Of a stretch of 63,508 nucleotides of DNA, positions 41,501 through 60,419 are shown one piece after another. A program made the translations under genes and the position numbers. Under the pieces are notes generated by a model that saw only the letters and a program-made list of their open reading frames with translations, searched no databases and was not told the DNA's origin. Numbering within the stretch: the stretch's first letter is position 1; every line of letters starts with the position of its first letter. Source of the stretch: Terriglobales bacterium (GTDB lineage: Bacteria > Acidobacteriota > Terriglobia > Terriglobales > Acidobacteriaceae); contig JAICSO010000023.1 of NCBI GenBank assembly GCA_025936825.1, positions 1-63,508 of the forward strand, read 5' to 3'.

Positions 41501-41747
41501 TGTTGGGAATCGTCCGTTTTGTGGCGTGACGCCGACTACCCCGGGGTTCCTGGAAACTGTTGTTTGGGGCAGGACTCCTCAACTCGCCTGGCATGGGCGC
41601 CCTAGGACTGGCGACGCAAGACGAGATTGAGCAATGTTTCTTTCGCTCCTGTTCTGATTTCGTAACAAAGGGAGCGGGTGGCTTTTGTGGCTGAATGTTG
41701 TACATGCTACAAATGAGATCAGTGTTTCGAACCAGGTGTTACATACG

Positions 41748-44125: not shown

Positions 44126-44956
44126 TCATCCTGAAGGGGGAGCCGATTGCCGGCTATGGTCCACCTCCGCCATGCGCATCGTCACCGCTGTGACTCGTCC
44201 GACGATATCTGCTTCGTGGGGATAGCGAAGCTGGCGAATTTGCCCCCTCGATTGTGGACAAGGAACCAGGATCAGTTGATTTCCCACGAGTTCACACCAG
44301 CTACATGCGTAACCGCTCCGAAGCTCGACAAAATAAATTGGTCGATCGAATTCGTTTTGCCAATTTCCAGCCTTTACTTTGTTTTGATGGGCGTCGATCT
44401 CCACAAATGAGCCAGGGCGGATGATGGGATATAACGTGTAATCCTCGAGTCCAATGTACCCAAAAAGACGCCGCTGCAAGTCTATCTGCCGCAAAAGCGA
44501 AACGGGGATCTCACCCCAGCTTTCAAACATACGCGAGACCAGGTTCGTGCGAGAGAGCTCCACATTCTTGCGGAGTTCTGTGGGGAGAACGATCTCGTTC
44601 CCAACGAGCTCAATATTGGATCCGATCAGGTGTGTGTGTGGCAGGCCGACCAATTTCTGTTCTTCGACGGCATCAGCGAGGTTGATCCCGAAGAAGCCCA
44701 TGATTTTTACATAGCTGCATTTGTAGATGAGACTCAGGCTGTAGAGCTTGTAGATACTCGGGGTAAACTTACCATTTTCGACTTCGGTGAGCCACGCGTG
44801 GGAAATGTAATAGTCCTGGTTGTTGTTCTTCTCCTGGGCAATTTGGTGGCTAAGCCTTTGAACGTCCCGCGTGGACAGACGGGCGCGCAAACGTTCTGCT
44901 CTAAGCCGTTTGCCGGCCTCCGGCCTCTCTGTCGACTCCAACATCGGCGTCGGCAT
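44126..44956 (-). CDS. HTH regulator with S24/LexA-like C-terminal domain
   Basis: 276 residues. The N-terminal HTH (R-L-R-A-E-R-L-R-A-R-L-S-T-R-D-V and W-L-T-E-V-E-N-G-K-F) is XRE-like with an insertion. The C-terminal domain has P-I-I-R-P-G-S-F-V-E-I-D, R-P-I-Y-F-V-E-L, C-E-L-V-G-N-Q-L and D-I-V-G-R-V-T-A-V. This is the beta fold of S24 peptidases, but no Ser-Lys dyad is recognisable, so it is probably a ligand-sensing, not self-cleaving, module. It is divergent from 45151-46863, which contains two copies of the same architecture. It is a likely regulator for the lasso region. Confidence 0.7.
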   Translation of the reverse strand: MPTPMLESTERPEAGKRLRAERLRARLSTRDVQRLSHQIAQEKNNNQDYYISHAWLTEVENGKFTPSIYKLYSLSLIYKCSYVKIMGFFGINLADAVEEQKLVGLPHTHLIGSNIELVGNEIVLPTELRKNVELSRTNLVSRMFESWGEIPVSLLRQIDLQRRLFGYIGLEDYTLYPIIRPGSFVEIDAHQNKVKAGNWQNEFDRPIYFVELRSGYACSWCELVGNQLILVPCPQSRGQIRQLRYPHEADIVGRVTAVTMRMAEVDHSRQSAPPSG

Positions 44957-45150: not shown

Positions 45151-46863
45151 ATGGTCACCGGAAGAGCCAAGTCCCACAAACTTATCACGGCAATGACTAT
45201 TTCCCATTTATTAAAGGCAGTCCAAATTCCTCGTACACACGGAAAGACGAGACGAACAGGGGCCGTGAAACTCCACAGAACCCCGAAATCCGAAGTGGTG
45301 GAGCGTGTCAGAGCAATACTGGACCGTAAAGGCCTGACCCTGTACCAAGTCTCCTTGCGAACGCAGAACCTCTACGGCCGTTCATCTCCCTATTTTGTGC
45401 CTCATAACCTGTACTATGAGCTCGATGTTGGTACCTTCAGTCCGAGTCTCCACCAACTGCTTGCTCTGAGCAAAATCTCCAAGTACCGGTTCAATGATTG
45501 GCTGCGCGTCTTCGGATTCAGCCCGGAGAGAATCCCAGAACTGCAGCTTCTTCTTCCCTCAAAGCGGACCATGGTCCTCGACAGCACAGTGGATGACCCG
45601 GAATCGTGGATCCCCTGGTTCCGCAACAAACCTGGCCCCCGAGAAGCTCCATCTATTGCACCGCTCGGTCAGTTCATAGAATTGTCGGAAGCCAGACGGC
45701 TTAGATCGTTCCAGGTGGATAGCGACAGCTTCATTTACGCAAAAGTGGGACGGCAAGATGTTCTAGCCTTTCCCAATCTGCTCCCGGGCAGCATCGTTCG
45801 AGTAAACACGAAGATCACAAAGACTCTGGCGCCGCGTAATGCCTCCCCGGATTGCCTGTTTCTCCTCGAGCATGCGGCCGGCTTCTGTTGTTGCCGACTG
45901 CAGGCACTAGGTGAAGGTCGCGTTTTGCCATTGAGCACACATCTGCCTTATGCGCAGGTTGAGCTAAAGTTGCACGAAGAAGCGAGAATTCTCGGCGTCC
46001 TCGATCTTGAGATCCGGCCTTTAATTGCCCGAGTACAACCGGAAGTCCCCAGAGCATTGGCGAGGTACTGGAAGCCATTGAGCCTGCCGCCAGAGCAGGT
46101 AAAGTTGAGCCGCTTGCTTCGCAATGCAAGATCAAGAATGGGCTTGTCATTCCGCGAGGCTTCCGTATTGAGCCGCCGCATCGCCTCAGAACTGGGCGAC
46201 GAGCAATACTTTGCCGCACCGGGTTCTCTCTCCGACTACGAAACGCAGGACGCTCCCCCGAGGCACGTGCAGAAAGTAATTACCCTGTGTGCGATCTACG
46301 GTCTGCACTTCTCGACATTTTTGAAAAGCAGTGACTTGCATAGCCAGGATGCTGGGCAAGAGCCGATCCCGGACAATCTCGTCCCAAGAAAGACTCCGAC
46401 TAAGTTTCAGAAGAACAGAAAAGAGTTTAATCAGTTCTCGGGACAGCAGCTTTTAGAATTGCTGAGGCGATGGGAACCGGTGCCATTCTTTCTGCGAAAC
46501 CTCCTGCCCGAGCTTTCCGGGCTGAAAAGTCTCTCCCTTCATGACTTCTTCTGGGTTGGAGACGAGCAGAAACCACTTCATCCTCTCCTGGTGAACGGAC
46601 TTATCCTGATCATCAATCGTCACAAAAAGAAGCCCATTTACTCCCGGTCGCACCCATTGTGGCAGCAACCGCTTTATGTCGTGCTGAAGCGAGATGGAAC
46701 TTACATTTGCGGGTGCTGTAGCCTCGAAAATGACGTGTTGGTGATTCACTCGTATTCCCCCGCCTATCTGCAACCTGAGAAGCTAAGAAATCACGACGAT
46801 GCGGAGGTAGTCGGCCTGGTTGTGACTGTGGCTCGGAGGCTTAACGGCCCCTCGCTGTCGTGA
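45151..46863 (+). CDS. Large regulator with two tandem HTH plus S24-like units
   Basis: 570 residues; the exact start is uncertain (ATG at 45151 or 45193). Unit 1 has an HTH-like segment (V-R-A-I-L-D-R-K-G-L-T-L-Y-Q-V-S) at about 48-122 and an S24-like domain with N-L-L-P-G-S-I-V-R-V at about 195-295. Unit 2 repeats this with L-S-R-L-L-R-N-A-R-S-R-M-G-L-S-F-R-E-A-S at about 310-390 and H-P-L-L-V-N-G-L-I-L-I near 480, ending A-E-V-V-G-L-V-V-T-V. The two units and the divergent 44126-44956 align with each other. It reads toward the lasso genes and ends 395 bp before the ORF in front of the exporter. I know of no named family with this double layout. Confidence 0.65.
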   Translation: MVTGRAKSHKLITAMTISHLLKAVQIPRTHGKTRRTGAVKLHRTPKSEVVERVRAILDRKGLTLYQVSLRTQNLYGRSSPYFVPHNLYYELDVGTFSPSLHQLLALSKISKYRFNDWLRVFGFSPERIPELQLLLPSKRTMVLDSTVDDPESWIPWFRNKPGPREAPSIAPLGQFIELSEARRLRSFQVDSDSFIYAKVGRQDVLAFPNLLPGSIVRVNTKITKTLAPRNASPDCLFLLEHAAGFCCCRLQALGEGRVLPLSTHLPYAQVELKLHEEARILGVLDLEIRPLIARVQPEVPRALARYWKPLSLPPEQVKLSRLLRNARSRMGLSFREASVLSRRIASELGDEQYFAAPGSLSDYETQDAPPRHVQKVITLCAIYGLHFSTFLKSSDLHSQDAGQEPIPDNLVPRKTPTKFQKNRKEFNQFSGQQLLELLRRWEPVPFFLRNLLPELSGLKSLSLHDFFWVGDEQKPLHPLLVNGLILIINRHKKKPIYSRSHPLWQQPLYVVLKRDGTYICGCCSLENDVLVIHSYSPAYLQPEKLRNHDDAEVVGLVVTVARRLNGPSLS

Positions 46864-47257: not shown

Positions 47258-47389
47258 ATGAATATTAAATTTGACTTCTCTCGTTGTCGGGATCGCGAAC
47301 ATCTTGAACTGAGGGTGGAATTGGATGGGATAACCAGCGTAGGCTGCGAATTCGTCGCCGGAGTCGATCCTCGTTTTGCAAACGGGTAG
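47258..47389 (+). CDS. 43-residue ORF coupled to the exporter gene
   Basis: ATG 47258-47260, TAG 47387-47389. It begins M-N-I-K-F-D-F-S-R-C-R-D-R-E-H and ends one base before the exporter ATG at 47391, the spacing of a translationally coupled pair. It has two Cys and no leader motif, membrane helix or known family. It lacks a good ribosome site. It could be an accessory peptide or a coupling leader ORF for the exporter. Confidence 0.35.
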   Translation: MNIKFDFSRCRDREHLELRVELDGITSVGCEFVAGVDPRFANG

Positions 47390-47390
47390 A

Positions 47391-49145
47391 ATGCAGATGT
47401 CGTCGTGGATTCCATCGGAAATGCGGTGGTTGTCCCGACACGTTTTCCCATTCCTTCGCTGGCACATTGCTAGTTTCTTCTGCATGTCGGTGGGAAGCTT
47501 CCTCGGCCTCCTCGCCCCATTAGTCTTGAAACGGCTGATCGACGAGATCCTTCCCAACCGGCGGATAGGCCTGCTAGTCGGTGCCGTGGCTCTCATTTTC
47601 GTGTGCCACCAGGGAAGAGCCGTGCTTTCGAGTCTTGGAGGCTACTTGACGTTGGTCGCAGCCCAACGATTGGCACGCGACTTGCGTCTACGGCTGCTCC
47701 GACATCTAGACACTCTCTCCGCCGCTTACTATGAAAGCACACAAGTGGGCGCCTCAATTTACCCGCTGCAGGAGCCTATCGATGAAATCTCATTTCTTGG
47801 TTCCGACCTCCTGCCTGCTCTCTTGCGGATGGTCATGGCGACCATTCTTACGCTAGGGACGATGCTCGCACTAAATGCACGCATGACTGTAGCGGTCCTG
47901 CCCCTGATTCCCATCTTTCTTGCAACCAGAAAGCACTTTCGCACGCGCTTGGAACGCGATTCCGATACGGTACAGCACAATCAACTGGCGTGGGGCGCAT
48001 TCCTGCAAGAACACCTCTCATCAATCATCGCCATACAACTACTTCGTCAGGAAAAGCGGCAGGAGCGCTCTGCACGTCGGCTTTTGGGCACCTCTGCCCG
48101 TTCGCTGATCGGGCTTTTCCGGAACGGGGTTTGGTTCACCTTCTACACAAGTCTGAGCATCGCACTAGCAATAACTGCGGTCGTAGGATATGGCGGCCGA
48201 AATGTGTTAACCGGCACATTGACACTCGGTGGTCTGGTTGCGTTCTACACATATCTGACGCAACTGTTCGAACCTTTGAGCGGAGCAGCAGAAATTTATC
48301 TACGAGCTCAGAAGACCTTCGCCAGTATCCGCCAGGTGAAGGCTGTCCTGGACTTACAACCCGCGATCAAGAACTCCGTTTCAGCGACCCAATTTCCGCT
48401 CGGGAACTCGTGGACCATTGATCTCGCAGATGTCTATTTCAACTACCCGAACAACCGCGGTCTATTGTCAATTCCGCAGCTCGAAATTCGATCAGGCGAA
48501 CTCGTCGCCATCGTAGGCGGGAATGGCGCCGGCAAGAGCACTCTGGCAAAGCTTCTGGCCCGTCTCTATGATGTAAGCTCTGGGGCAATATCGGTCTCCG
48601 GACAGGATATTCGGGAAATCAACATCGACAGCCTGCGTGCAAATGTGAACTACGCCCCACCGCATCCGATTCTCTTTGACCTAACGCTAGCTAGTAACCT
48701 TCGGCTCGGCAACATTCGGGCTTCAGACCCAGAACTGATGGATGTGATCCAGCGCGTGGGCCTAACTACGTGGGTCGGCTCTCTGCCTGACGGTCTTAAT
48801 CATAGCGTCGGCCCCGGTGGTTCCCGCCTTTCAAGTGGTCAAAGACAGCGCGTTGGGATCGGGAGGTCAATCCTTCAACAACCTCGGATACTGATACTGG
48901 ACGAAGCCACATCCTCTCTCGATGCCCGTTCAGAGCAACTGTTGCTAAGCACCCTGCGTGATATCCTGCCGGCCAGCACTATTATCGTCATTTCGCATCG
49001 GTCATCAGCGTTGTCGTGCGTCGGAAGGGTAATCGTTCTTGAAGCAGGACATGTGGTCGAGGATACCACTCCGGAAATACTTCTTAGAAATCACCGTGGA
49101 TCGTCTCCATTTGGTAGCGTGGACATTAGGTCGTGCCCTCTTTAG
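47391..49145 (+). CDS. ABC exporter of the lasso cluster (D protein, McjD-like)
   Basis: About 584 residues: six membrane helices (about 15-300) then an ATPase with Walker A G-G-N-G-A-G-K-S-T near residue 375, signature L-S-S-G-Q-R-Q-R, Walker B I-L-I-L-D-E-A-T-S-S-L-D and the H-loop S-H-R-S. There is no C39 peptidase domain, so it does not cut leaders. In lasso systems such half-transporters export the mature peptide and give self-immunity. It is first in the biosynthetic run; 268 bp separate it from B1. Confidence 0.88.
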   Translation: MQMSSWIPSEMRWLSRHVFPFLRWHIASFFCMSVGSFLGLLAPLVLKRLIDEILPNRRIGLLVGAVALIFVCHQGRAVLSSLGGYLTLVAAQRLARDLRLRLLRHLDTLSAAYYESTQVGASIYPLQEPIDEISFLGSDLLPALLRMVMATILTLGTMLALNARMTVAVLPLIPIFLATRKHFRTRLERDSDTVQHNQLAWGAFLQEHLSSIIAIQLLRQEKRQERSARRLLGTSARSLIGLFRNGVWFTFYTSLSIALAITAVVGYGGRNVLTGTLTLGGLVAFYTYLTQLFEPLSGAAEIYLRAQKTFASIRQVKAVLDLQPAIKNSVSATQFPLGNSWTIDLADVYFNYPNNRGLLSIPQLEIRSGELVAIVGGNGAGKSTLAKLLARLYDVSSGAISVSGQDIREINIDSLRANVNYAPPHPILFDLTLASNLRLGNIRASDPELMDVIQRVGLTTWVGSLPDGLNHSVGPGGSRLSSGQRQRVGIGRSILQQPRILILDEATSSLDARSEQLLLSTLRDILPASTIIVISHRSSALSCVGRVIVLEAGHVVEDTTPEILLRNHRGSSPFGSVDIRSCPL

Positions 49146-49413
49146 CTATGGATACAGAAATGTTCCCACTCTGGGTTGCTTCGTAGTCCACGCAAATTTC
49201 GTGCCTCGTAGTAGTCCCCCACGTTCTCCTTATCCATCATGACATGCTTTGCAGGATCTGGATCCTTTAGGCTTAATGGCTGAAATGCGAACACCTGCTT
49301 TGTCAGCCTGACACGAGCTAGTCGGTTCTTACACTATCGTCCCCGCAACAAGTTCTCTTAGTCGGCGATCCTGCGAACATTTTTGGCAAAGTCTCGCGCC
49401 GAACCCAGGCGAC

Positions 49414-49722
49414 ATGGCACAGTTCCCAATAGATTTTATGAGTTGGAGGACCGAATACGTGTACGACGTTTGCGCAGGAGTTCGCAGCACAAGGAATAAG
49501 GATGGCGGGATACTTCTGGACCTACATCGCGATCGGATGTTCAGACTCAATCCACTCGGAGCAATAATTTTCGATGCTATTCAAAAGGGGCAAACTGAAT
49601 CCGAGATCACGGAGGAAATAATCCGACACTTTGATGTGTCTCCGGAAGCTGCCAGCTCGGACGCTCGCGAGTTCTTGATGTCCCTCGAGCGACTAGGAGT
49701 GCTTCTCGCAAGAAACCCATAG
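49414..49722 (+). CDS. Lasso peptide B1 / PqqD-like leader-recognition protein
   Basis: 102 residues with the RRE fold pattern: G-G-I-L-L-D-L-H-R-D-R-M-F-R-L-N-P-L-G-A-I-I-F-D, then a helical segment I-T-E-E-I-I-R-H-F and V-S-P-E-A-A and a final A-R-E-F-L-M-S-L-E-R-L-G-V-L. PqqD-like proteins bind the N-terminal part of RiPP precursors and hand them to B2 and C. The following B2 gene begins 40 bp on. The ATG at 49414 is the most plausible start; a second in-frame Met lies at residue 9. Confidence 0.88.
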   Translation: MAQFPIDFMSWRTEYVYDVCAGVRSTRNKDGGILLDLHRDRMFRLNPLGAIIFDAIQKGQTESEITEEIIRHFDVSPEAASSDAREFLMSLERLGVLLARNP

Positions 49723-49762
49723 CCATCCAACCAAGGGCTTCAACCTTTTAGATGATTGCGTA

Positions 49763-50200
49763 ATGTCGCCGAGCGATATCGTATTCCGAAGCCTTCGCTC
49801 CTTGTGTTTGCGGAGACAAACGATGGCACGATTGCTTTTCTGGAAGGCGCTGTTTGGCCTCGCGGCTTTTGACACGCTGCACCTCGGACAGAGTTTCCGT
49901 CGGTTGCATAAGTACGTCAGCCGTTGGAGCCTTCGTGAGAAAACTCCTTCAGACGACCCGGTTCAGCGTGTCTGCCAAGCGGTTAATTACGCCTGCGTCC
50001 TTTACCCGAAGCGCGTGTTATGCCTGCAACGATCCGTCGTAACAACTTGTCTTCTTCGCGCCTGTGGTGTGCCGGCACAAATGATTGTGGGCGCCCAGAT
50101 TCTGCCGTTCAAAGCACATGCTTGGACAGAGGTCAACGGAGTTCCCGTCAACGAGCCTAGGGACGTTAGAAAAACTTACGAAGTCCTCGACCGATGGTAA
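49763..50200 (+). CDS. Lasso peptide B2 transglutaminase-like leader protease
   Basis: 145 residues. The catalytic Cys is probably Cys87 in V-L-C-L-Q-R-S, with His119 in A-H-A-W-T-E-V-N-G, as in lasso B2 (McjB C-domain) proteases. It should cleave the leader from the precursor with help from B1. The short length and the separate B1 gene match split McjB systems. The cyclase starts 13 bp after its stop, so the two are co-translated or nearly so. Confidence 0.88.
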   Translation: MSPSDIVFRSLRSLCLRRQTMARLLFWKALFGLAAFDTLHLGQSFRRLHKYVSRWSLREKTPSDDPVQRVCQAVNYACVLYPKRVLCLQRSVVTTCLLRACGVPAQMIVGAQILPFKAHAWTEVNGVPVNEPRDVRKTYEVLDRW

Positions 50201-50212
50201 TAGGACGCGATA

Positions 50213-52090
50213 ATGAGTGTACAAATAGGTATTCTCAGCTTCGACGGGGAGCCGATTGGTTGTGAGTCTCTGACTCGCCTAAGCAGTACCGCTGCTGCAT
50301 ATGGCCCAGATGGCGAGACGACTCATTGTCAAGGACCAGTGGGATTCCTTTATCGCCCTTTCCGGACCACAGCCGAGGCCACTGCTGAACATCAACCCGT
50401 GGTTTCGCCTCAAGGGAATATCGTCACCTGGGACGGCCGTCTTGACAATCGGCACGAGCTCATTGAACAGCTTCAAGATACGCTGCGAAGCGATACCACC
50501 GATGCAGAGATTGCGGCAACAGCATTTGATCGATGGTGCACAGACTGCTTCACAAGAATAGTAGGTGATTGGGCGATCTCGATTTGGATTCCCGACAACA
50601 GGGAGCTCATTTTAGCCAGGGATTACATGGGGATCCGACATCTCTTCTACCATCTCACCCCGACTCGGGTGACCTGGTCCAGTCACTTAGCTTCCCTTGC
50701 GATTGCCAACAAGAACTTGCATGTGTGCGACCGATACATTGCCGGCTATCTGGCAGCCGATCCTGAAGCTGACCTTACCCCGTACCAAGAAATAAGGGCG
50801 GTTCCGCCCGGGCACTTTGTACGAATCAAAAGTGGGAAGGTGACCTTCGGTCGTTTTTGGTCGGCCGACTTGCGGCCCTCGATCCACTATCGCAGCGATG
50901 CGGAATACGAAGAGCACTATCGATACCTCTTTCGGCAAGCTGTGCAACGGAGACTCCGTACGCAGTCACGCATCCTGGCCGATCTCAGCGGCGGTCTTGA
51001 CTCTACGTCGATCGTCTGTATGGCCGACAGCATCCTTAATACGAGTTCCCCAGGAACACCGGGGGTGGATACGTTTTCCTTTTACGACCTCGCAGAACCT
51101 GATGAGGATGATTTTCGCTATATCACGAAGGTCGAGCAGCTCAGAGGGCGCGCAGGGTTTTGCTTCAATTTCGAAGGCGGTGTGGATTCCATTCTGTTCG
51201 ATCGTCCCGTTTTCGTTGCAAGCCCCAGTTTTGGAGGTAGAGCTGAGATCACGACAGCACTGTCTCAGGTCCTGGAGCAACACGAGTATCGAGTATCTCT
51301 CTCTGGACGCGGAGGTGACGAATTCAACGGGCAGGCGTTGAATCCGCGGGTTCAGATGGCGGATCTGTTTTTACAGTTGCGGTTCGTCGAATTAGCCAAG
51401 CAGCTCGCGGCGTGGAGTCTTCTCATCAGAAAGAGACCGTGGGTTCACCTGCTCGCTCAGAGCCTCTTGCAGTTGGCTCCGGGGTGGACGCGCGCACTGC
51501 TTACTGACGAAGGAAAGGTAGATCCCTGGATTAATCCCGCATTCGCGAGAAGATACCAAGTATCCATCCGGCAGGTCGATGCTACTAGGGGTCTGGGGGT
51601 TGTGTATCCGAGTGTGCGCGACGCAGTTCACACTATTGTGACGATCGGAAGACAGATGAGTTCATTAGAACCCTCGATCGTCGAAACTAGATACCCGTAT
51701 CTTGATCAACAGTTGGTCGAATTCCTGACCGCAATTCCGCTCGATCAGCTGCTTCGGCCTGGGCAGCGTCGTTTTCTTATGCGAAGAGCTCTGGCAAACA
51801 TTGTGCCGCAGGACATTTTATTGCGAAGGACAAAATCGATGGTCAGCCGATGTTTTGCGGTGACGCTAGAGGTGCATTGGAAGCTGGTGGAGAGTCTCTT
51901 CTGCCATCCGGTTGGGTCTCGCCTCGGTTATTTCGTCACGGAACCCCTAAGGGAATCTCTGCGCGCAGTGAAGAACGGTCAAAGCTCTCCATACGTTCTG
52001 CGCCTGATGAAAGCAATATCTTTAGAGACGTGGTTGCGTCAGGCCGAGTCCTACGGAGTGATCTCGATTTCCCGTGGGTCGGCCATTTAG
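50213..52090 (+). CDS. Lasso peptide C cyclase (asparagine-synthetase-like)
   Basis: 625 residues. The N-terminal glutaminase-like domain lacks the Cys2 nucleophile (it starts M-S-V-Q-I-G), as in lasso cyclases. The synthetase domain has the ATP PPi-loop L-S-G-G-L-D-S-T-S at about residues 258-266 and L-S-G-R-G-G-D-E-F further on. It should adenylate an acidic side chain of the core and form the isopeptide ring. The gene ends 121 bp before the precursor ORF. Confidence 0.92.
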   Translation: MSVQIGILSFDGEPIGCESLTRLSSTAAAYGPDGETTHCQGPVGFLYRPFRTTAEATAEHQPVVSPQGNIVTWDGRLDNRHELIEQLQDTLRSDTTDAEIAATAFDRWCTDCFTRIVGDWAISIWIPDNRELILARDYMGIRHLFYHLTPTRVTWSSHLASLAIANKNLHVCDRYIAGYLAADPEADLTPYQEIRAVPPGHFVRIKSGKVTFGRFWSADLRPSIHYRSDAEYEEHYRYLFRQAVQRRLRTQSRILADLSGGLDSTSIVCMADSILNTSSPGTPGVDTFSFYDLAEPDEDDFRYITKVEQLRGRAGFCFNFEGGVDSILFDRPVFVASPSFGGRAEITTALSQVLEQHEYRVSLSGRGGDEFNGQALNPRVQMADLFLQLRFVELAKQLAAWSLLIRKRPWVHLLAQSLLQLAPGWTRALLTDEGKVDPWINPAFARRYQVSIRQVDATRGLGVVYPSVRDAVHTIVTIGRQMSSLEPSIVETRYPYLDQQLVEFLTAIPLDQLLRPGQRRFLMRRALANIVPQDILLRRTKSMVSRCFAVTLEVHWKLVESLFCHPVGSRLGYFVTEPLRESLRAVKNGQSSPYVLRLMKAISLETWLRQAESYGVISISRGSAI

Positions 52091-52195
52091 CCAACGCTTC
52101 GTGGGGATTCATCCGAAGGGTGGTGGCGTTAGTGGGCGCGCACCTGAAATTTGAAAACAAACGCTTTCTGCCGGCAGAGAATTAGCTTCTCTAAG

Positions 52196-52203
52196 AAAGG
52201 AGG
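52196..52203 (+). promoter_or_regulatory. Strong ribosome binding site of the precursor
   Basis: AAAGGAGG ends eight bases before the ATG at 52212. It is the strongest Shine-Dalgarno match in the cluster and decides the start of the short ORF. Confidence 0.8.
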
Positions 52204-52211
52204 TAACCACC

Positions 52212-52340
52212 ATGAACTACAATAAGCCTGAAATTACGGAACTGGGGCCCGCGTCGATGCTCGTTCAAGGGACGAAAAGCATAAACAGCGATCAGCCTGG
52301 ACAGCTAGCACTTCCGAAGGATTGTGAATTCGAAGACTGA
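52212..52340 (+). CDS. Lasso precursor peptide (A), 42 residues
   Basis: ATG 52212-52214, TGA 52338-52340. The N-terminal Y3-x2-P6-x-I8-x3-G12 fits the Y-x2-P-x-L-x2-L-G leader motif recognised by B1. From Gly20 the peptide reads G-T-K-S-I-N-S-D, which would give an eight-residue ring with Asp27, followed by Q-P-G-Q-L and an acidic tail with one Cys (Cys38). The usual Thr at the penultimate leader position is Val here, so the exact cut is uncertain. Ser23 as an alternative first residue would leave the acceptor Asp at position 5, too short. The gene sits behind C and is too short for most callers. Confidence 0.8.
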   Translation: MNYNKPEITELGPASMLVQGTKSINSDQPGQLALPKDCEFED

Positions 52341-52384
52341 CGCTTGCAACCGGCAGCAGAATATTGCTTGACGGTTTGCTTCAC

Positions 52385-52433
52385 GGCTCTCTCTTGGGCG
52401 CGCTGCGCTGGCGAACTAGGGGGAGCCTTTTTT
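52385..52433 (+). terminator. Rho-independent terminator of the lasso run
   Basis: GGCTCTCTC (52385-52393) pairs with GGGGGAGCC (52419-52427) with two G-T pairs; the loop contains a smaller GC-rich stem. Six T follow (52428-52433). It lies 45 bp after the precursor stop and before the convergent peptidase gene. Confidence 0.7.
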
Positions 52434-52465
52434 CTGACGATCGATATTCCTCGTTCCGTCCGTTC

Positions 52466-55045
52466 TCATCGGCCGTCATTTGTTTCAAGTTTACGCAAAG
52501 TCTCCCACCGCGCATACTGGTCTGCCTTGTCAGGATCTAAATCCTTGTGTTCGTTCAGCCAAAAATCGAACCACTCGACTGCTGACTGCTGAGAAGAATA
52601 TCGTTGAACGGGCTGTACGAGGATATGAGGGGTATTCTCCCGTGGCCACCAGGACATCTCCACAGGTTTCTTCAGCCTCCGCAGCCCTGAAAACGTCTCC
52701 CACTGTGAGAGTAAGGATCCCCTTAGGTATGCAGAAATAAGAAGAGCCGCCTTGACTCTGCCCAAACTGAAATTCGGAGCATCTTGAAGCCACGCTAACA
52801 GGTTGCCCCCAAACGGAGAACCGCCATTAATTCCCTCAGCCTCTTCCTGATATTGATCTTGGGCGCCAGCAAGGACATATTCGACGTAACTAAAGTTGAC
52901 CCCGTCGGTAACAGCCGCCGCTCTGAATAATCCAGGGCTGTGCGTCAGTGCATACATCACGTGAAAGCACGTGCGGCTGAAACCGATAATACCAACCCGA
53001 GTGCGATCAACGAGTCCTTGCGAAACCAGGAGACTAATGGCCGATTCGAACATAGCCAACTGGTTCGGTCCTTCTTGAGGCCCGTCCATATCCGGGAAAT
53101 AGTCGCCTGTTTGCAAGACGATTATGCCCTTAGCTGCCAAAGCCCTGCCTCCATTTCCAGTTGTCACTGCGCCATCAGCAAAAAAAGCGTCTGGATCGTC
53201 GCCATGTGTTTGGATCACGAGCGGGTATCGTCGGCCAGCCGTATACTCGGGTGGCAAAGCCAGGATGCCAGACCATGTTCTCCCGCTCATGTCCTGCCAG
53301 TGGTAAAGTTTGGCCATTCCCAACTCTACTTGGCTCAATTGTGGGTTGGGATCCCAGAGGATCAACTCGGCTTCGCTACTTTGCGAACCTGATCTCAACA
53401 CGGTTGGATGATTCAGATCCTCATGGACTTCCAGTTCGGCGTTTATTCCGTCTAGCCGTACTGAATTGTTCAGCTTGTGCGGCCCAGAGTGGCGCCACTC
53501 GTTCAATTTCAAGCTGTAGACGCCTGAAAGAGGCCGCGAATCACCCGTTGACCTGTAGTGAATCGTAATCTCATTCCTTGCAGGATCCCACTGCACGCCG
53601 TCGATTGCCTCGTAGTGCGCCGCCGTTGATGACTGTCTTAAATTAATACTATTCTGCACTTGCCGAGTGACGACGTCCATGAGCACGAAGGTAGGGTCGT
53701 TAACCGTCGGCCCCGCTCCTCTGCTATTTGTTAAATCTGAAAGTGGCACGTAAGCATTTGTGAGGACCACGTGCCGACTATCTGCAAGCCAGAATGCTTG
53801 TGTTGGTACGCTACCGTAACCCAAATCTCGACCCGCAGGTGCATCAAGAAGCGGGAATACCAAGCCCGTAGCAAGATCTACGACGATATATTCTTCTGGC
53901 CTCCAAAAGCTTTCGAGCGTCGTCAAGTCTTTATGGAGAAACCGTCCATCCTTGAGGCGAAACTGTTCAAAGCGAGGTTGATATCGCTCCCACGCTTTCG
54001 GCACATCAGCGACCGGTGCAACGGTCACCAGCAACTTTTTATCCGGAGAGAGGGAGATGCTCGGGACAAACACTTGCAACGGCTCTTGTGTGCCTGGAAA
54101 CCTCACCGGTATGTCTCTGCCGCCTTGCTCAACGTGGAGATAATTCGGATGTTTAAGCAGGTAACTTTCCTCGACATCCTGTATAGCAGGAGGATTCCGA
54201 TACAACAGTCCAAGTGCACTTCGACCACCAACATTTAAGATTTTTCGCGTCGAATGCTGCTCGACATTGTCCTCAGCGAGCGTCGTGTACACCAGCACAT
54301 CGCCGCGCATCTCGAACGCAGTCACGTACAACTCTTCCTTTGTCAGAGCGACCATTGTTGTTGTTTGCACATCAACAACAAAGAGGCGCTGGTAGGGACT
54401 GTCATTTTTAGCCAGAAAAGCCACTTTCTTTGAACCGTCAATCCAGCGGACATCCTCGATTACCGGTGTGTTGCTGGTCGACCTCACCGTTACGAGCTTC
54501 TTCGGAACCAGCTTTGCAGGAGAATTCGCGAGAATATGATCCCGAACAATCTTCTGATCAAAAAGCCAGATTGTGCCTTCAAGTTTATTGGCGGAAAGCA
54601 CCCCGCGCTGGGTTACGAGCAAGAAGTACCGACCATCTGGAGAACATATTGGCGTGCCTGTGGGTTGCCGTTCGTGCAGTTCAATTGTTGTGGATCGAGC
54701 CGGATCTACGATCTGAGAAATCTCAATGGAATCCTTCACCGTAAATGGACGCTTCGTTGTTGCGGTGTCTGTGCCGTGAATTGACACGCTCCAAGTCAGA
54801 GCGGACATTGCGGCGGTAAATGCCAGGCATTGCGAAGCCCAGATACTAACGTCCACCGTGAGACGCCGGAAAGAGCGCAGAGGGTTCCTTAGGGGTCCTT
54901 CCGGCTTCATCGCGATGCATTGCTCGGTCATTGGCGTAAGAAATGGACAACTAGGCATTGAGGAGCAAATCCAACCCCTGCGTCCGGTCACACCAGGGCT
55001 AGCTCTTGCTATTCCTGACCCATGATGTCGGGTAAGAGCGCCCAT
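52466..55045 (-). CDS. S9 family peptidase resembling AtxE-type lasso isopeptidases
   Basis: 859 residues in the longest frame; the true start may be M39 (54931) or M46 (54910), where an export signal with R-R and a hydrophobic stretch begins. The N-terminal half is a beta-propeller (S-P-D-G-R-Y-F, V-R-W-I-D-G-S-K-K-V-A-F). The C-terminal half is an alpha/beta hydrolase with nucleophile Ser690 in G-F-S-R-T and His807 in T-P-H-I-L, ending D-Q-Y-A-R-W-E-T-L-R-K, as in AtxE relatives. The triad Asp is not evident where expected (A-Y-L-R-G-S). It probably opens or degrades the imported lasso peptide in the periplasm. Confidence 0.8.
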   Translation of the reverse strand: MGALTRHHGSGIARASPGVTGRRGWICSSMPSCPFLTPMTEQCIAMKPEGPLRNPLRSFRRLTVDVSIWASQCLAFTAAMSALTWSVSIHGTDTATTKRPFTVKDSIEISQIVDPARSTTIELHERQPTGTPICSPDGRYFLLVTQRGVLSANKLEGTIWLFDQKIVRDHILANSPAKLVPKKLVTVRSTSNTPVIEDVRWIDGSKKVAFLAKNDSPYQRLFVVDVQTTTMVALTKEELYVTAFEMRGDVLVYTTLAEDNVEQHSTRKILNVGGRSALGLLYRNPPAIQDVEESYLLKHPNYLHVEQGGRDIPVRFPGTQEPLQVFVPSISLSPDKKLLVTVAPVADVPKAWERYQPRFEQFRLKDGRFLHKDLTTLESFWRPEEYIVVDLATGLVFPLLDAPAGRDLGYGSVPTQAFWLADSRHVVLTNAYVPLSDLTNSRGAGPTVNDPTFVLMDVVTRQVQNSINLRQSSTAAHYEAIDGVQWDPARNEITIHYRSTGDSRPLSGVYSLKLNEWRHSGPHKLNNSVRLDGINAELEVHEDLNHPTVLRSGSQSSEAELILWDPNPQLSQVELGMAKLYHWQDMSGRTWSGILALPPEYTAGRRYPLVIQTHGDDPDAFFADGAVTTGNGGRALAAKGIIVLQTGDYFPDMDGPQEGPNQLAMFESAISLLVSQGLVDRTRVGIIGFSRTCFHVMYALTHSPGLFRAAAVTDGVNFSYVEYVLAGAQDQYQEEAEGINGGSPFGGNLLAWLQDAPNFSLGRVKAALLISAYLRGSLLSQWETFSGLRRLKKPVEMSWWPRENTPHILVQPVQRYSSQQSAVEWFDFWLNEHKDLDPDKADQYARWETLRKLETNDGR

Positions 55046-55051
55046 CCAGCA

Positions 55052-58000
55052 TCAGAACTGTAGCTTCAGAGCAAATTGCAAGGACCGTGGCCCCCCGAGC
55101 TGATAAAGGGGATTGAATGCGCCGTTGCCGACATTCGACCCGGTCAAGAACTGGCCAAGTGTCTGCGTAGACAGACCGAACTGAGTTGCGTTGCTCATGT
55201 CAGACACGGGTGGTCCGAAGTTTGGATGGTTCAGGAGGTTAAAGATCTCTCCCCGGAACTGAAGCTTCAGTGACTCTCGAATGGGGAAATCTCGGTGTAT
55301 TGCAAAGTCCCATTGCCACGCTCCAAAGCCCCGAAGCGCGTTGCGGCCCAGGCTACCCTGCCGAAGGGGATTCCCATTCACATCGGTGGGAGGCGGGCAG
55401 AAGGGACCGAAACAGCCTAGCCCCGCTTGGCCCTGAGTGTTGTTGAGCACTTTTCCACCCGCATACTGCGGACCGTAGAGATACACGGGAATTCCAGCAA
55501 TCAGATCAGGCCGAATCTGCGCTTGGAAGCTCTGCAAATACGAGAAGTTCCCGTCGAACACATTGACCGGAGGCGCAGACCGAATCTGGAAGATGCTTTG
55601 AACAGACCAACCACGCAGTGCCGCGTCTGCAAGCTTGCGAAGCCGCGGAGTTGCGATCTCATACGTGACAGCGGCAGAAAAGGCATTACGGATATCGAAA
55701 TCGGAGTCACCATGGTTTTGGTTAATGGTACTTGGCAGAAAGGCGTTCGCTCCATTGCCCACATACGAACCGGCGGACGCAGTGTCTATCGAGTGCGACC
55801 ATGAGTACGAAGCGAGCCCCTGAAGGCCATTGCTGAGGCGCCGCTGAAACTGTACTTGCAGCGCATGATAACTGGATGTGGCTTCGTTGGTAATTAGGTT
55901 GATAAACCCGAACTGCGGGTTGGGCGAGGCCACATGTGCGGACTGGATTAATCGTCTTCCGGATGAGCCAACATAGGATGCCGACAGCGCCTGCTCTGCG
56001 CCTATTGCTTGTTCGACGCTCACATTCCACTGCAGAGTGTACGGCAGCTTCAGATGCGGATCGAACACTCCCCAAGCGCCTCCGGGTGCCAACAAATTGT
56101 TTGGAGTTATGGCCGGAGGCGCTGCGTCATCGGAACTCAGGGGGAATGTGCTGGTACCGCCATAAATGGGACCGAGAGCGTATTGAGTCGCTCCAAAAGG
56201 ATAGTAGCTTGGGTTGATGCTGTTGCCGGCTTCGGAAGTTGCTAGGTCATAAAAGACGCCAGTTCCCCCTCGCAGGACGGTTTGCCAGTTCCGGCTTCTC
56301 GTGAGTTCGTACGCAACGCCTATCCGCGGTGCAAAAGTTTTATAACTGGTATGGAAGGGAGCTGTTCCACTGGGTGCGAGCGCAAGATTTGTAAGATTGT
56401 TCAAATCCAAGCTCGTAATAGCAAGAAAGGGAGGGTTTGAAGATGGCGCGAAGTCCACATCCCAACGCAGCCCGTACGTGATGGTCAAGGCGCCGCCAAT
56501 CTTCCAATTATCCTGTAGATATGCCCCCAGATTCTGGAATAGGAATTTTCCACTTCGGCCGGATGACACTCCATCAAATTGCATTGTGCCAGAGGTCGAC
56601 GAGGGAACGTCGCCGAAGACTACATTTTGTTTATAAAGGGCGTTACCCCAAGAGGGAGACAGGCGCCTATAATCTACCCCGATCTTGATATTGTGAGTGC
56701 CCCTCTGAATGGTTAGACCGTCGACAATGTTCAGCTGCCGCTGCCTATTTTCCCCGTTGAATCCTGGTTGTGGACCGGCTGAGCCCAAGGAGAGCCATAT
56801 CGTAACGAGGGCGCTGTTGCTGTTGTTGAACCCCTTCGGGAAGGGCAACGACGCTAGCGGAACTCCCCCACCGAAGTTATCCAAGTACGTGAAGCTCCTG
56901 GAGACAGTCGCGCTGTAGTTGAAGCGAACGTCATTGACCACCGTTCCTGAAGGTACCCAAGTCAATCCTAGAGTCGACGTCCGGATTGTGATCTTGGACG
57001 GCGACACCGAATTAAGGGTACCGTGCCCCCTCTGGCTCGATGTCGAAGGAGAGTCATTGTATCGTCCGAAGATACTCCACGCGTCGTTGATCCGGTGGTC
57101 AATTCGAAGGCTGTAAGCATCTAGTCGCGCACTATTGGAGAAAGAAGTGTTGAACTGTGCGATTCCATTGGTGACATCATCCATCGTGCCGGGAGTGGGC
57201 AACGGAAATGCATTTAGATAAGGCAGCATTGCCGGAATAGCGTCGGCCCTAGCATTCGAGTCCGGCACAAGCGACTGGGCCACCTGAGGGAGGCGGAGAC
57301 GTAAGCCCTCGTAAGACAAAAAGAAAAAGGTCCGGTTTCTGAGGATGGGGCCACTGAAGGTGGCCCCGAAATCGTTTTGGCGTTCCTCCGGCTTGGGTAA
57401 GCCGTTATGGTCCGCAAACCAGTCATTGGCATCGAAGACATCATTCCTTAGATACTCGAATGCGCTGCCGTGCCATCGATTGGATCCGGAGCGTGTGACG
57501 ATGGAGATCTGTGCGCCAGGGGTGCGACCAAACTCTGGCGCGAACGTCGAAGTCTGGATGCGAAACTCTTGCATGGCGTCCACAGAAACCAGACTGTTCG
57601 TCCCACCCAGGACGCTCAGAGACGCATTGGCACCCGATAAGCCATTTCCCGCGGAGTAGTTCGAGGTGCCGATTCCGACATTTCCGCTCACTCCGTCGAC
57701 CATCCAGTAATTGGAAGACGCCCGTTGTCCGTTGACACTGAATTGCCCGTTATCGTAGTTGCTGTAGGGAGTTGATACCACGCCCGGCGTCAGTTGAATC
57801 AGAGTCTGGAAACTTCTACCGTTCAGCGGTAGGTTCTCGGCAAACTGGCGGTCAACGACGGTACTCACCGCCGCTGACTCAGTGTTCACCAGCGTAGCGC
57901 CGCCCTGTACCGTCACAGTCTCCGCAATTGCTCCGACGGGCAGTGTAAAGTTGATGGCCAGCGCGTCTTGGACGTTCAAAACGATGTCTGGCTTGATTAG

Positions 58001-58294
58001 CGTTTTGAAACCAAATTTGGAAACCTGGATGCGGTAAGGCCCTGGCGGAAGGTTGGGAACAGCATAGATGCCCTCAGCATTGGTCACACTCGGATACTTA
58101 ACCCCAGTGGCATCGTTCACGATTTGCACGTCAGCACCGACGATTACCTTTCCCGTTAAATCAACAATCAGTCCGCTGATGGTGCCATTTGGAGATTGTG
58201 CGGCTGCAGAGGTCGCGAGAAGTGCAATGAACAGCAAGGCGAGTAGGGGGAAGCGTAGTCTCACAAGGGCCGCTCCTGGCATCGACGGATTCAT
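55052..58294 (-). CDS. Oar-like TonB-dependent receptor
   Basis: 1080 residues. A signal peptide ends near A-A-A-Q-S. A carboxypeptidase-regulatory-like domain follows (S-G-L-I-V-D-L-T-G-K-V-I-V-G-A-D-V), then a plug (V-N-T-E-S-A-A-V-S-T-V-V and N-G-R-S-F-Q-T-L-I-Q-L-T-P-G-V), a 22-strand-type barrel and a terminal Phe (A-L-K-L-Q-F). These proteins sit in the outer membrane and import large ligands with TonB. The isopeptidase-like gene follows 6 bp downstream (longest frame), mirroring receptor/isopeptidase pairing in astexin clusters. It is probably the lasso importer or sensor. Confidence 0.88.
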   Translation of the reverse strand: MNPSMPGAALVRLRFPLLALLFIALLATSAAAQSPNGTISGLIVDLTGKVIVGADVQIVNDATGVKYPSVTNAEGIYAVPNLPPGPYRIQVSKFGFKTLIKPDIVLNVQDALAINFTLPVGAIAETVTVQGGATLVNTESAAVSTVVDRQFAENLPLNGRSFQTLIQLTPGVVSTPYSNYDNGQFSVNGQRASSNYWMVDGVSGNVGIGTSNYSAGNGLSGANASLSVLGGTNSLVSVDAMQEFRIQTSTFAPEFGRTPGAQISIVTRSGSNRWHGSAFEYLRNDVFDANDWFADHNGLPKPEERQNDFGATFSGPILRNRTFFFLSYEGLRLRLPQVAQSLVPDSNARADAIPAMLPYLNAFPLPTPGTMDDVTNGIAQFNTSFSNSARLDAYSLRIDHRINDAWSIFGRYNDSPSTSSQRGHGTLNSVSPSKITIRTSTLGLTWVPSGTVVNDVRFNYSATVSRSFTYLDNFGGGVPLASLPFPKGFNNSNSALVTIWLSLGSAGPQPGFNGENRQRQLNIVDGLTIQRGTHNIKIGVDYRRLSPSWGNALYKQNVVFGDVPSSTSGTMQFDGVSSGRSGKFLFQNLGAYLQDNWKIGGALTITYGLRWDVDFAPSSNPPFLAITSLDLNNLTNLALAPSGTAPFHTSYKTFAPRIGVAYELTRSRNWQTVLRGGTGVFYDLATSEAGNSINPSYYPFGATQYALGPIYGGTSTFPLSSDDAAPPAITPNNLLAPGGAWGVFDPHLKLPYTLQWNVSVEQAIGAEQALSASYVGSSGRRLIQSAHVASPNPQFGFINLITNEATSSYHALQVQFQRRLSNGLQGLASYSWSHSIDTASAGSYVGNGANAFLPSTINQNHGDSDFDIRNAFSAAVTYEIATPRLRKLADAALRGWSVQSIFQIRSAPPVNVFDGNFSYLQSFQAQIRPDLIAGIPVYLYGPQYAGGKVLNNTQGQAGLGCFGPFCPPPTDVNGNPLRQGSLGRNALRGFGAWQWDFAIHRDFPIRESLKLQFRGEIFNLLNHPNFGPPVSDMSNATQFGLSTQTLGQFLTGSNVGNGAFNPLYQLGGPRSLQFALKLQF

Positions 58295-58392
58295 ACGGAT
58301 TCATCCGGTCTACGGAAGGCCATCAGTATTTGTATCAATTTTTTTTTGAGCAGTATTCGGGAAAGGCTAGTGGTCAGTTTTCCAAACACAAA

Positions 58393-59718
58393 CTAAGGGT
58401 GATTCGGATCAATATGCAGGTAGGCAAACAATAGTGGCTTCTTGCTAGGCCGTTGGCTGCCACCGTTGGGCTCGACCGTAACAAAGACAGCATCAATTTG
58501 CGCCAACGCTTTAGGGTCATCGAACCTCAGGATCCATCGCCTCTTGGAAGCGTTATCCACATAAAAGACACCTAGGTTGAGCGCTTCTTGCCACTCTGGC
58601 CCACGCCGTCCCCAGGCTTGGAAAGTGCTGGCGTTCTTCACTCCGGGCTGCTTGTCCAGGTCGTATGCGTAAAAAATCAGCGACTTCCCTTTTGTATAGA
58701 ACACGCGGCCATAGGGCTTCTTGGTCTCTCCCGTGCCCTCCACGTCGTAGACCTCTGCAACGTAGAGATCCCGTGCACCCATCAGGTCGCGGATGTCACG
58801 GTCATGGGCGAGTAGTTCCTGCGCCTGGCTGATTCCAGCCTCGCGGTCACGCAGCAAGCGCGTCAGATCGACGACCTTGGCTTCTAGTGCATTGGCCCGT
58901 TGCTTATCCTCGGAGGACTGGCGACCGAGTACTTCCAGCTTCTGCTGAAGCCCTTGAGTCTTGGTCTCGGCAGCTTCCAGCTTCTGAGTCAATTCAGATT
59001 GCCTTTGAAGAATATCCTGCTTGTCCGTCTGACCGGTCTGGAGCTCGGCTTCTAGTCTCGCTTTGACAAGTCTCATTCGACGCATCTCACTCGACTGCCG
59101 TCCTAGTTCGCACCGCAGCGACGAAACTTCCCTGTCCCTTTCTGCCATCTGCGAACTTAGAATCTCACGCTCATGGCCAGCGTCGCTGACCCGTTCTTGC
59201 AGCACCGCGGAATCTCTCCGTCCGGCGATCGGTCGAACCACGGCACTTTTCACACCCAGTCGAATGCCCACTTGGAAGGCAGAAACGCCAAGGGCTATGC
59301 ACAGCAGGATTCCAGCGGCACAGAGAACCCAGACGTTGCGCCAAGTAGCCTGACTCGCCGACCGAGTGACCGTCGCTACGGCCTCCGAGACAGAGTCCCC
59401 ATCGGAGCCCGCATGAATCGCGCCCGATTGTTCCTCGTGAGTCAAGCGCTCGAAAAGGGCGGTTTCTGCTTGCTCTTGCGACCATAACGGATCAAACTCC
59501 ACCTGTTTCGGGTCCGGCGCCAAGGCGGGAATGGTCTTTCTGACCACCGCATCGAACTGTTGCATGGCCTCCCTGCAGGAGGGACAAATCCTCAGATGCT
59601 GCTGCAGTCGCTTCCGCTCTTCGGCCGTCAGCTGGCCGGAAGTTGAGACAGCGCAGAGCCCGAGAAACTCGTCATGGGGTGATTGCGACAATGCCCCGGC
59701 TCCTGGTTTGAGAATCAT
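58393..59718 (-). CDS. Anti-sigma protein with zinc finger and RskA-like C-terminus
   Basis: 441 residues. The N-terminal zinc-finger (L-Q-Q-H-L-R-I-C-P-S-C, the H-x3-C-x2-C of zf-HC2) is followed by one membrane helix (about residues 133-153), a long coiled coil and a C-terminal domain of the anti-sigma-K type (G-R-V-F-Y-T-K-G-K-S-L-I-F-Y-A-Y, F-V-T-V-E-P-N-G-G). It should hold the ECF sigma factor inactive at the membrane until a periplasmic signal arrives. Its start overlaps the sigma gene stop by 4 bp. Confidence 0.85.
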   Translation of the reverse strand: MILKPGAGALSQSPHDEFLGLCAVSTSGQLTAEERKRLQQHLRICPSCREAMQQFDAVVRKTIPALAPDPKQVEFDPLWSQEQAETALFERLTHEEQSGAIHAGSDGDSVSEAVATVTRSASQATWRNVWVLCAAGILLCIALGVSAFQVGIRLGVKSAVVRPIAGRRDSAVLQERVSDAGHEREILSSQMAERDREVSSLRCELGRQSSEMRRMRLVKARLEAELQTGQTDKQDILQRQSELTQKLEAAETKTQGLQQKLEVLGRQSSEDKQRANALEAKVVDLTRLLRDREAGISQAQELLAHDRDIRDLMGARDLYVAEVYDVEGTGETKKPYGRVFYTKGKSLIFYAYDLDKQPGVKNASTFQAWGRRGPEWQEALNLGVFYVDNASKRRWILRFDDPKALAQIDAVFVTVEPNGGSQRPSKKPLLFAYLHIDPNHP

Positions 59719-60419
59719 TTTCTACCACATCCGTTACGGTCCGGCAATTTCTCTGCAAACAGCCGCTTTCGGAGCTTGTCCAAGCCCCGATAGTAATGAT
59801 TCCGTATGTTTCCCACAGATTGATCAAGTTTTGCGCCGATTTCGGCGAAGGTATAGCCGTCAAAGAAATGCAGGCTCAGAGTATTGCGCTGGTCTTCTGT
59901 CAGGGAGTCGAGAAGTCCCGCCACGGTCGCATTCCCGACCACCGAATTGAGGTGAGTTCCTTCTTCCCTGCTTTCCGGGCGCGAGTCCAATAACTCCGCC
60001 ACGCCATCGAGGTCCACCCTGGTGTAGAAGTGACGGGAGTTGAGGTACCGTCTGCGATCGATGGCGCGGTGATAAGTCATCTGAACGATCCACGAGCGCA
60101 GCGCAGATCGGGACGAATCAAAGATGGAGCAGTTGCGATGAACAAACAGAAATACGTCCTGAAGCAAATCATCTGCTTCGGAGTCGTCGCGCAGGATGCG
60201 CATCGCAACAGCCCGAACCAGTCGGGCGTAGCGGCGGAATAGAATACCTAGTGCTTCCCTGCTCCCATCGCAAATCCGGACCATCAACGCTTCATCGGAG
60301 ATCTCCGACTCGACGGTGCGCGGCTCAGCGGGAGAGGTGGCCTTCTCATCGCGCTCTTTAGAGATTGCGAGCGCATTTAGCCGAAATACAGTGGAAGCAT
60401 CCATAAAGCCGGGAGCCAT
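59715..60419 (-). CDS. ECF sigma-70 factor
   Basis: 234 residues. Sigma region 2 (F-R-R-Y-A-R-L-V-R-A-V-A, D-D-L-L-Q-D-V-F) and region 4 (L-D-S-L-T-E-D-Q-R-N-T-L-S-L-H-F-F-D-G-Y-T-F-A-E-I-G) are complete. It is coupled to the anti-sigma gene by a 4-bp overlap. The pair presumably controls the receptor and peptidase genes that follow on the same strand. The first 45 residues are polar and may be extra; the start at 60419 is the longest frame. Confidence 0.92.
   Translation of the reverse strand: MAPGFMDASTVFRLNALAISKERDEKATSPAEPRTVESEISDEALMVRICDGSREALGILFRRYARLVRAVAMRILRDDSEADDLLQDVFLFVHRNCSIFDSSRSALRSWIVQMTYHRAIDRRRYLNSRHFYTRVDLDGVAELLDSRPESREEGTHLNSVVGNATVAGLLDSLTEDQRNTLSLHFFDGYTFAEIGAKLDQSVGNIRNHYYRGLDKLRKRLFAEKLPDRNGCGRK

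Follow-up and report, generated by a model that had tools for sequence, protein, structure and literature searches.

A lasso-peptide gene cluster facing an isopeptidase-like protein, an Oar-like receptor and an ECF sigma factor in an acidobacterium

The 63,508-nucleotide stretch of DNA considered here (the window; contig JAICSO010000023.1 of the Terriglobales bacterium assembly GCA_025936825.1, an entire contig of a 6.54 Mb genome in 141 contigs) carries the lasso-peptide genes D-B1-B2-C-A (47376-52340, + strand), which converge on genes for an isopeptidase-like S9 peptidase, an Oar-like TonB-dependent receptor, an anti-sigma factor and an extracytoplasmic function (ECF) sigma factor (52466-60419, - strand). 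The reading we favor, and consider somewhat probable, is that of a lasso-peptide maker equipped with a receiver of its own. The host is a soil bacterium, and the facing arrangement is conserved in relatives from soil as well; a conserved promoter element, new in this analysis, precedes the receptor gene. A sequence-only reading of the window had proposed a full lasso system joined to an isopeptidase/receptor/sigma module in a probable acidobacterium; the host is indeed an acidobacterium, every expected gene is present, and each named gene is an open frame at the claimed position. The families assigned from the letters are borne out by matches to Pfam and NCBIfam profiles, in scans of ten window frames, five short frames and three further frames. 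The features of the system are as follows.

47376..49145, + strand: D, ATP-binding cassette (ABC) exporter with membrane and ATPase parts (PF00664, PF00005; Walker A GGNGAGKS and LSSGQ read directly)
49414..49722, + strand: B1, PqqD-type leader-recognition (RRE) protein (PF05402, 3e-14)
49763..50200, + strand: B2, transglutaminase-like leader peptidase (NF033537, 69 bits, above the cut-off of 33)
50213..52090, + strand: C, asparagine-synthetase-like macrolactam synthetase (PF00733 Asn_synthase, 3e-33; PF13537)
52212..52340, + strand: A, lasso precursor of 42 amino acids (read directly)
52466..55045, - strand: S9 isopeptidase-like protein, propeller plus alpha/beta hydrolase (NF033523, 158.6 bits)
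55052..58294, - strand: Oar-like TonB-dependent receptor (PF25183, 5e-152; PF13620, 3e-19; PF00593)
58302..58340, - strand: ECF-type promoter element before the receptor and isopeptidase genes (position weight matrix score 38.6)
58393..59718, - strand: anti-sigma factor (zf-HC2 above cut-off, RskA_C just below)
59715..60419, - strand: ECF sigma factor (PF04542, PF04545; TIGR02937, 89.8 bits)

Conservation of the layout was examined in related loci (L numbers; genomes have G numbers) that were picked through matches to the isopeptidase, C or B2 and annotated with profiles grown from the window genes. The linkage counts take isopeptidase frames longer than 1.7 kb with enough flank, leave out split or short frames (L089, L096, L121 and L122 among them), and, like the precursor-gap counts given below, count near-identical loci of different species apart. 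A receptor of the window type lies directly upstream of every full-length isopeptidase gene in the Terriglobia loci (56/56), and anti-sigma and ECF genes are also upstream of 37 of the 43 isopeptidases (the misses are L068, L078, L086, L097, L102 and L123). A convergent cyclase faces the isopeptidase in 47/55 cases, eight being without one; 47 of 50 cyclases of the window clade converge on an isopeptidase, the misses being L093 (in which broken frames of a second cyclase lie in between), L221 and L234, and three more had insufficient flank. Among cyclases of other clades one of eight has a match to the isopeptidase profile, which at 31 bits is not counted as an isopeptidase. The split isopeptidase of L089 also has its receptor. 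Cultured bacteria that share the layout include Silvibacterium bohemicum S15 (L156) and Granulicella sp. S156 (L201). A search of named genomes for peptide patterns yielded 79 loci, taken from the best 80 of 153 relatives matching two such patterns, and a scan of named genomes with a single protein gave no match. The same convergent layout in dozens of genomes is more than chance would produce, and the neighborhood comparison that the sequence-only reading had put forward as a check leaves its claim of a linked system standing: the S9, receptor and sigma genes are conserved next to C in relatives.

By gene content and precursor anatomy A-B1-B2-C can be read as a lasso biosynthetic cluster, and a threaded product is predicted. 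B1 scores 50 bits against NF033530 (lasso_PqqD), below the cut-off of 70, and the best NCBIfam model for C is one of a lasso cyclase, at 291 bits and below the cut-off of 525; the Cys and HAW positions of B2 (45 alignment rows) and the SGGxDS motif of C (52 rows) are at least 95% conserved. D probably serves export of the lasso peptide, to judge by its domains. The precursor, read directly, is MNYNKPEITELGPASMLVQ followed by GTKSINSDQPGQLALPKDCEFED, and AAAGGAGG is positioned 8 nucleotides before its ATG. Its leader (52212-52268, 19 amino acids) has YxxPxI at -17..-12 (Tyr -17, Pro -14, Ile -12) and Val(-2); its core (52269-52337, 23 residues) has Gly1 and Asp8 and fits the rule of Gly, Ala, Ser or Cys at position 1 with Asp or Glu at positions 7-9. 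The predicted monoisotopic mass of the lasso (the core less one water) is 2473.14 Da. A core start after Thr(-2), between GTK and SINSD..., was rejected for lack of Asp or Glu at positions 7-9. The match of the precursor to the benenodin family is weak (E 0.018), and its spacing is that reported for the Ile/Val(-2) precursors, which have YxxPxL at -17..-12, Gly1, Asp8 and split B1/B2 (the bsf cluster and Acidobacteriaceae precursors; Duan 2023, PMC10368454). The words "isopeptidase", "TonB" and "sigma" occur nowhere in the main text of that paper.

In related loci a small YxxPx[LIVMT] open reading frame occupies 45 of the 46 gaps between C and the isopeptidase gene, giving 68 precursor peptides, some of them identical. 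Many of these have acidic C-terminal tails (e.g., AYEADE, ADWE, DCEFED), which may be a handle for the receptor or the enzymes. Tails such as AYEADE and DCEFED could also bind metal, as would suit a siderophore-like carrier, proposed for isopeptidase clusters (PMC9266682; PMC11006600), in which the peptide binds a cargo and is re-imported, and the isopeptidase then frees the cargo; there is no metal-uptake gene among the module genes scanned, and we regard this explanation as improbable.

On the opposite strand, the S9 protein is by its sequence and predicted fold probably an exported lasso isopeptidase. Against PDB sequences it matches the Sphingopyxin I isopeptidase SpI-IsoP (5jrk, 1.3e-24) and AtxE2 (5txc, 1.1e-21), the remaining five matches at E<=1 being at 0.22 or worse. 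An AlphaFold2 model (mean predicted local distance difference test, pLDDT, 80.5; 24-row alignment) was compared by Foldseek, and chains of SpI-IsoP and AtxE2 take ranks 1-8 of the 50 matches listed, with TM-scores of 0.47-0.53 by query length. Across 28 rows Ser690 (in GFSRT) and His807 do not vary; Glu783 (QWE), which pairs with QIE of SpI-IsoP in a pairwise alignment and is missing in some relatives, may be the catalytic acid and is the favored candidate. The start of the 859-codon frame is provisional; in relatives with recognizable starts a hydrophobic stretch precedes the mature start in 62/63 isopeptidases by a simple hydropathy count (same-locus repeats included). Plasmid records matching the S9 protein are all from Sphingomonadales or Caulobacterales genera (20/20), and 12 of the 20 carry the annotation Atxe2 family isopeptidase at the matching place.

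For the receptor gene the GTG at 58264, 8 nucleotides behind AGGAG, is the probable start, and an apparent signal peptide (read by eye) follows it. The receptor combines CarboxypepD_reg (PF13620) with an Oar-type barrel (PF25183), which places it in the Oar type, and neither STN nor Plug is matched in a profile scan at E<=0.001. The anti-sigma factor consists of zf-HC2, one hydrophobic segment, a coiled coil and an RskA-like C-terminal domain, its conserved positions lying mostly in the C-terminal part, and has no FecR domain match in the profile scan. These scans support the earlier claim that the Oar-like receptor and the zf-HC2/RskA-type pair are of other families than their proteobacterial counterparts. 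Because the Oar family is abundant (76 matching stretches in this genome, pieces of one gene counted apart), a chance neighborhood was considered; it was rejected, since the linked receptor falls in a separate group that adjoins isopeptidases elsewhere. The 89 isopeptidase-linked receptors match the window receptor at 357-1238 bits (the window included, some places fetched twice), whereas its best paralogue in the same genome reaches 279 bits at 34% identity, so the receptor is a dedicated orthologue; of ten unlinked receptors, three belong to the same group (654-709 bits) and seven fall outside it (60-220 bits).

In a few loci sigma and anti-sigma are replaced by one frame of about 1000 amino acids (L144:3677-6676, L178, L184:3616-6666, L198 and L209:2068-5220), with an N-terminal sigma-70 region 2 (Pfam, three scanned) and, in the two that were read (L144 and L209), a CxxC stretch with a hydrophobic segment further on. 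Such a frame, which also occurs in a metagenome-assembled genome (MAG) of Pyrinomonadaceae, possibly unites a sigma factor and its membrane sensor in one protein.

We take the receptor to resemble Oar of Myxococcus xanthus, a TonB-dependent transporter. That protein is required for secretion of the protease PopC (PMC6434023), whereas the window receptor has a lasso isopeptidase and an ECF switch as its neighbors. The secretory role of Oar invites the view that the window protein is an export component that carries either the lasso peptide or the isopeptidase out across the outer membrane, and no outer-membrane export partner of D was found among the window genes scanned by profile. The receptor gene, though, shares its strand with the isopeptidase, anti-sigma and ECF genes and not with D, and modules of receptor and isopeptidase without adjoining biosynthesis exist (8/55 without a convergent C); we consider a part in export very improbable.

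The stretches between anti-sigma and receptor genes share the element TTGATACA-N16-CGTAGAC, described by a pattern made after the stretches before the receptors had been read and scored by a position weight matrix trained on 11 loci, the window excluded (hit threshold 13). The window copy (58302-58340) scores 38.6, the best in the window, followed by 20.6, 16.0 and 10.1. At a score of at least 13 the element stands before 34/57 receptors with this anti-sigma type (23/46 outside the training loci) and before 1/11 receptors without an anti-sigma gene directly upstream, the one being L137, which has a piece of an anti-sigma gene at the locus edge. It is found in neither the one cut locus (0/1) nor the fused-sigma loci (0/7), before none of 27 proteobacterial receptors (24 FecR-type, 3 other), and before 5 of 859 other genes (repeats not removed), none of these scoring 18 or more. 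The conserved element goes with this sigma/anti-sigma type, and the ECF factor of the window would be the one that uses it. Across its own genome the looser form TTGATAC-N15..19-CGTAG occurs four times and the reversed control once, and the full element twice, both on the window contig and once before this receptor; the other site, at 40573, had already been seen before the genome-wide pattern search. Two genome matches at three mismatches or fewer are not unusual (28/100 shuffles), and both of those found had none. Autoregulation of the ECF gene was tried as an idea and rejected, dyad counts before that gene reaching at best 6/56, with five shuffles giving 4 each.

Relatives of the S9 protein occur in 44 of 399 Terriglobia genomes (that of the window included) and relatives of C in 67 of 399, in class-wide searches that scored the best two or three candidates per genome, so that absences are provisional. 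Six of the 44 isopeptidase-positive genomes have no C at E<=1e-40 (G156, G198, G253, which is an 80% complete genome, G262, G279 and G402), and 6/12 other isopeptidase genomes have no lasso B2 (Rudaea twice, Frateuria, Oleiagrimonas, an Obscuribacterales and an Acidobacteriota MAG); some isopeptidase frames in such maker-less genomes are split (L121 of G198). A receiver without a maker is the expected outcome of eavesdropping, of stripping peptides made by others, or of decay. It would also suit self-protection or turnover, in which receptor and isopeptidase remove lasso peptide that comes from the cell itself or from its neighbors, as detoxification or as food, and the ECF pair responds to stress or the envelope and not to the lasso. 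Pairs of an ECF factor with a zf-HC2/RskA anti-sigma are often general stress switches. The full element is present only twice in this genome, once before this receptor, which is unlike a broad stress regulon, and D already provides export; we consider self-protection rather unlikely.

The favored reading, a producer coupled to its own receiver, takes the genes present, the anatomy of the precursor, the family and predicted fold of the enzyme, the conserved linkage and the conserved element together as a cluster that would make, export, sense, import and open a lasso peptide. B1 and B2 would remove the 19-amino-acid leader, C would close a Gly1-Asp8 ring, and D would export the 23-residue lasso. 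The dedicated Oar-like receptor would then bind and import this peptide or that of a near relative, import and not export being the presumed direction, and its occupancy, or the periplasmic peptide, would make the zf-HC2/RskA-type anti-sigma let go of the ECF factor. The freed factor would fire the promoter element before the receptor gene, raising receptor and isopeptidase; the isopeptidase, with its probable export signal, would open the ring in the periplasm, and this opening might end the signal, release a cargo or recycle the peptide.

Several observations weigh against this scheme. The element scores below 13 in 23/57 loci with receptor and anti-sigma, L066 with the nearest relative of the isopeptidase among them; a shortened form, TGATAC-N16..18-CGTAGAC, is found at 13 sites across 16 genomes, 8 sites lying before the receptor, and its reversed control at 8 sites; and no copy scoring 13 or more precedes the ECF gene or, within the window, the biosynthetic genes. 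The isopeptidase score of 158.6 bits is far below the NF033523 equivalog cut-off of 400, and the usual S9 acid position is Glu (IEA) in many relatives and Ser (ISA) in the window and L066. Upstream of the split or short isopeptidase frames of L096, L121 and L122 no such receptor is present. The receptor is not inherited with the enzyme in every case: the best match of the receptor is in L225 (60.7%), whose isopeptidase is distant and scores only 201 with the isopeptidase profile. A receptor without STN leaves the step from occupancy to the anti-sigma unexplained, and since the Oar of Myxococcus works in secretion (PMC6434023), import in the window is not certain. The strongest additions of this analysis are the promoter element and the partner exchange described below; its weakest link is function, as judged from sequence and prediction.

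The closest known systems are the astexin, benenodin and sphingopyxin clusters of Alphaproteobacteria, whose isopeptidases (AtxE2, SpI-IsoP) are homologous to that of the window. Regions of Asticcacaulis, Novosphingobium and Sphingomonas have ECF, anti-sigma, TonB receptor and isopeptidase genes facing C/B2, the same order as in the window. A TonB transporter and a sigma/anti-sigma pair beside the isopeptidase gene are described as an almost constant layout (PMC9266682). The families of the receiver differ: in the one region scanned, that of Novosphingobium, the receptor carries STN and Plug domains and the anti-sigma a FecR domain, whereas the window has an Oar-like receptor and a zf-HC2/RskA-like anti-sigma. 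Compared with Fec-type surface signaling the window shows neither a receptor STN nor a FecR anti-sigma; a conserved ECF-type element, a candidate sigma-dependent promoter, lies before its receptor gene. The biosynthetic half differs as well. In the three alphaproteobacterial regions the precursor gene precedes B2, with a GntR gene adjacent in two, and no separate B1 is annotated; in the window the precursor gene is at the far end, by the isopeptidase, and B1 and B2 are split. Isopeptidase clusters are reported to be without an ABC exporter, except for rubrinodin (PMC9266682), so that the window, with D, differs from most astexin-type clusters. The rubrinodin cluster combines ABC exporter, isopeptidase and TonB receptor as the window does, but with a FecI/FecR-like pair (PMC9266682).

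A first, quick isopeptidase tree of 80 rows, which carries a long-branch warning, gave eight partner changes. In it the Oar-type partners all belong to Acidobacteriota (41 rows) and the partners of the Novosphingobium receptor type all to Proteobacteria (28 rows). A more careful tree kept 48/82 rows, 34 being dropped as long-branched, cut or near-duplicate or by thinning, and long branches remain a caution for it too; in this tree the isopeptidases of Acidobacteriota and Pseudomonadota interleave, the Acidobacteriota label needing six changes, five of them forced by starred branches. The receptor/switch partner type needs six changes, a count that does not tell gain from loss. Partner type goes with phylum and not with enzyme lineage, a pattern that would follow if the enzyme was exchanged and receptor and switch were rebuilt, or if these two were replaced after transfer. 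The sequence-only reading had seen in the window an independent version of the astexin design; with isopeptidase lineages interleaved and partners matching phylum, independence seems limited to the receptor and switch, which are of other families, while the isopeptidase is homologous and the gene order the same. Isopeptidases of Rudaea, Frateuria and Oleiagrimonas (L165, L168, L172 and L173) nest among acidobacterial ones, in genomes without a lasso B2 match; FecI/FecR-type genes lie upstream in three of these four loci, L173 being the exception.

Several hypotheses exist for the role of isopeptidase-type lasso peptides in their makers, which is regarded as unsettled (PMC9266682). With the same enzyme tied, in a second phylum, to another receptor and switch and to a conserved promoter element, the receiver half becomes open to testing. 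The relatives provide a resource of many uncharacterized precursors together with the receptors linked to them, and their biosynthetic operons also offer a candidate kinase and a candidate oligopeptidase. A literature search, mostly of openly accessible papers, found no published description of this module; a Granulicella genome paper merely lists a lasso cluster (PMC7074687). It is conceivable, though we hold it doubtful, that such lasso peptides serve in Acidobacteriota chiefly as signals and not as weapons: maker and receiver operons would face each other, with an STN-less Oar-type receptor wired to its own ECF switch and promoter; receptor and switch would have been rebuilt, or replaced by the local kind, several times as isopeptidase lineages crossed phyla (the six partner changes); and receiver-only genomes would listen to or strip the peptides of others.

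Two further genes recur on the biosynthetic strand of the relatives. An APH-like phosphotransferase is present in 31/35 loci with B1, B2 and the C/isopeptidase gap, and a classical prolyl oligopeptidase in 19/35; both lie mostly between B1 and B2 (e.g., L067:14584-16071 and L067:12560-14767, respectively) and are candidates for a tailoring kinase and a second peptidase. The window, L227 and L229 have neither gene, and L066 has no APH-like gene. All Ile/Val(-2) clusters of Duan 2023 are said to encode a kinase or phosphotransferase (PMC10368454), a rule to which the window, without an APH-like relative, is then an exception. In L082, L083 and L084 (1.9-5.1 kb or 16.8-19.9 kb) glycosyltransferase-like genes lie next to B2 along with tandem cyclases, and the products are possibly glycosylated lasso peptides.

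Upstream of D the window holds a second copy of the element and several regulatory genes:

40573..40603, + strand: second ECF-type element copy, 180 bp upstream of the response-regulator gene
40784-41500: LuxR-type response regulator, after the second element copy
41685-42416: GAF protein, after the second element copy
42732-44018: PAS-GAF protein, after the second element copy
44126..44956, - strand: X1, helix-turn-helix regulator with a predicted LexA/CI-repressor-like C-terminal fold
45151..46863, + strand: X2, 570-amino-acid relative of X1, immediately before D

The fetched loci gave one weak response-regulator match and no GAF-gene match, only the PAS-GAF gene recurring; its relatives are found in other clusters close to their ECF end (L111, L069, L125, L228, L225 and L098). 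Relatives of X1 and X2 recur beside D/B1 or at the ECF end in many related clusters; the fold model of X1 is of middling quality (pLDDT 71.8). Several short frames between the ECF gene and the end of the contig (61274-63336, - strand) presumably resemble pieces of tyrosine-type integrases and are possibly a mobile-element remnant.

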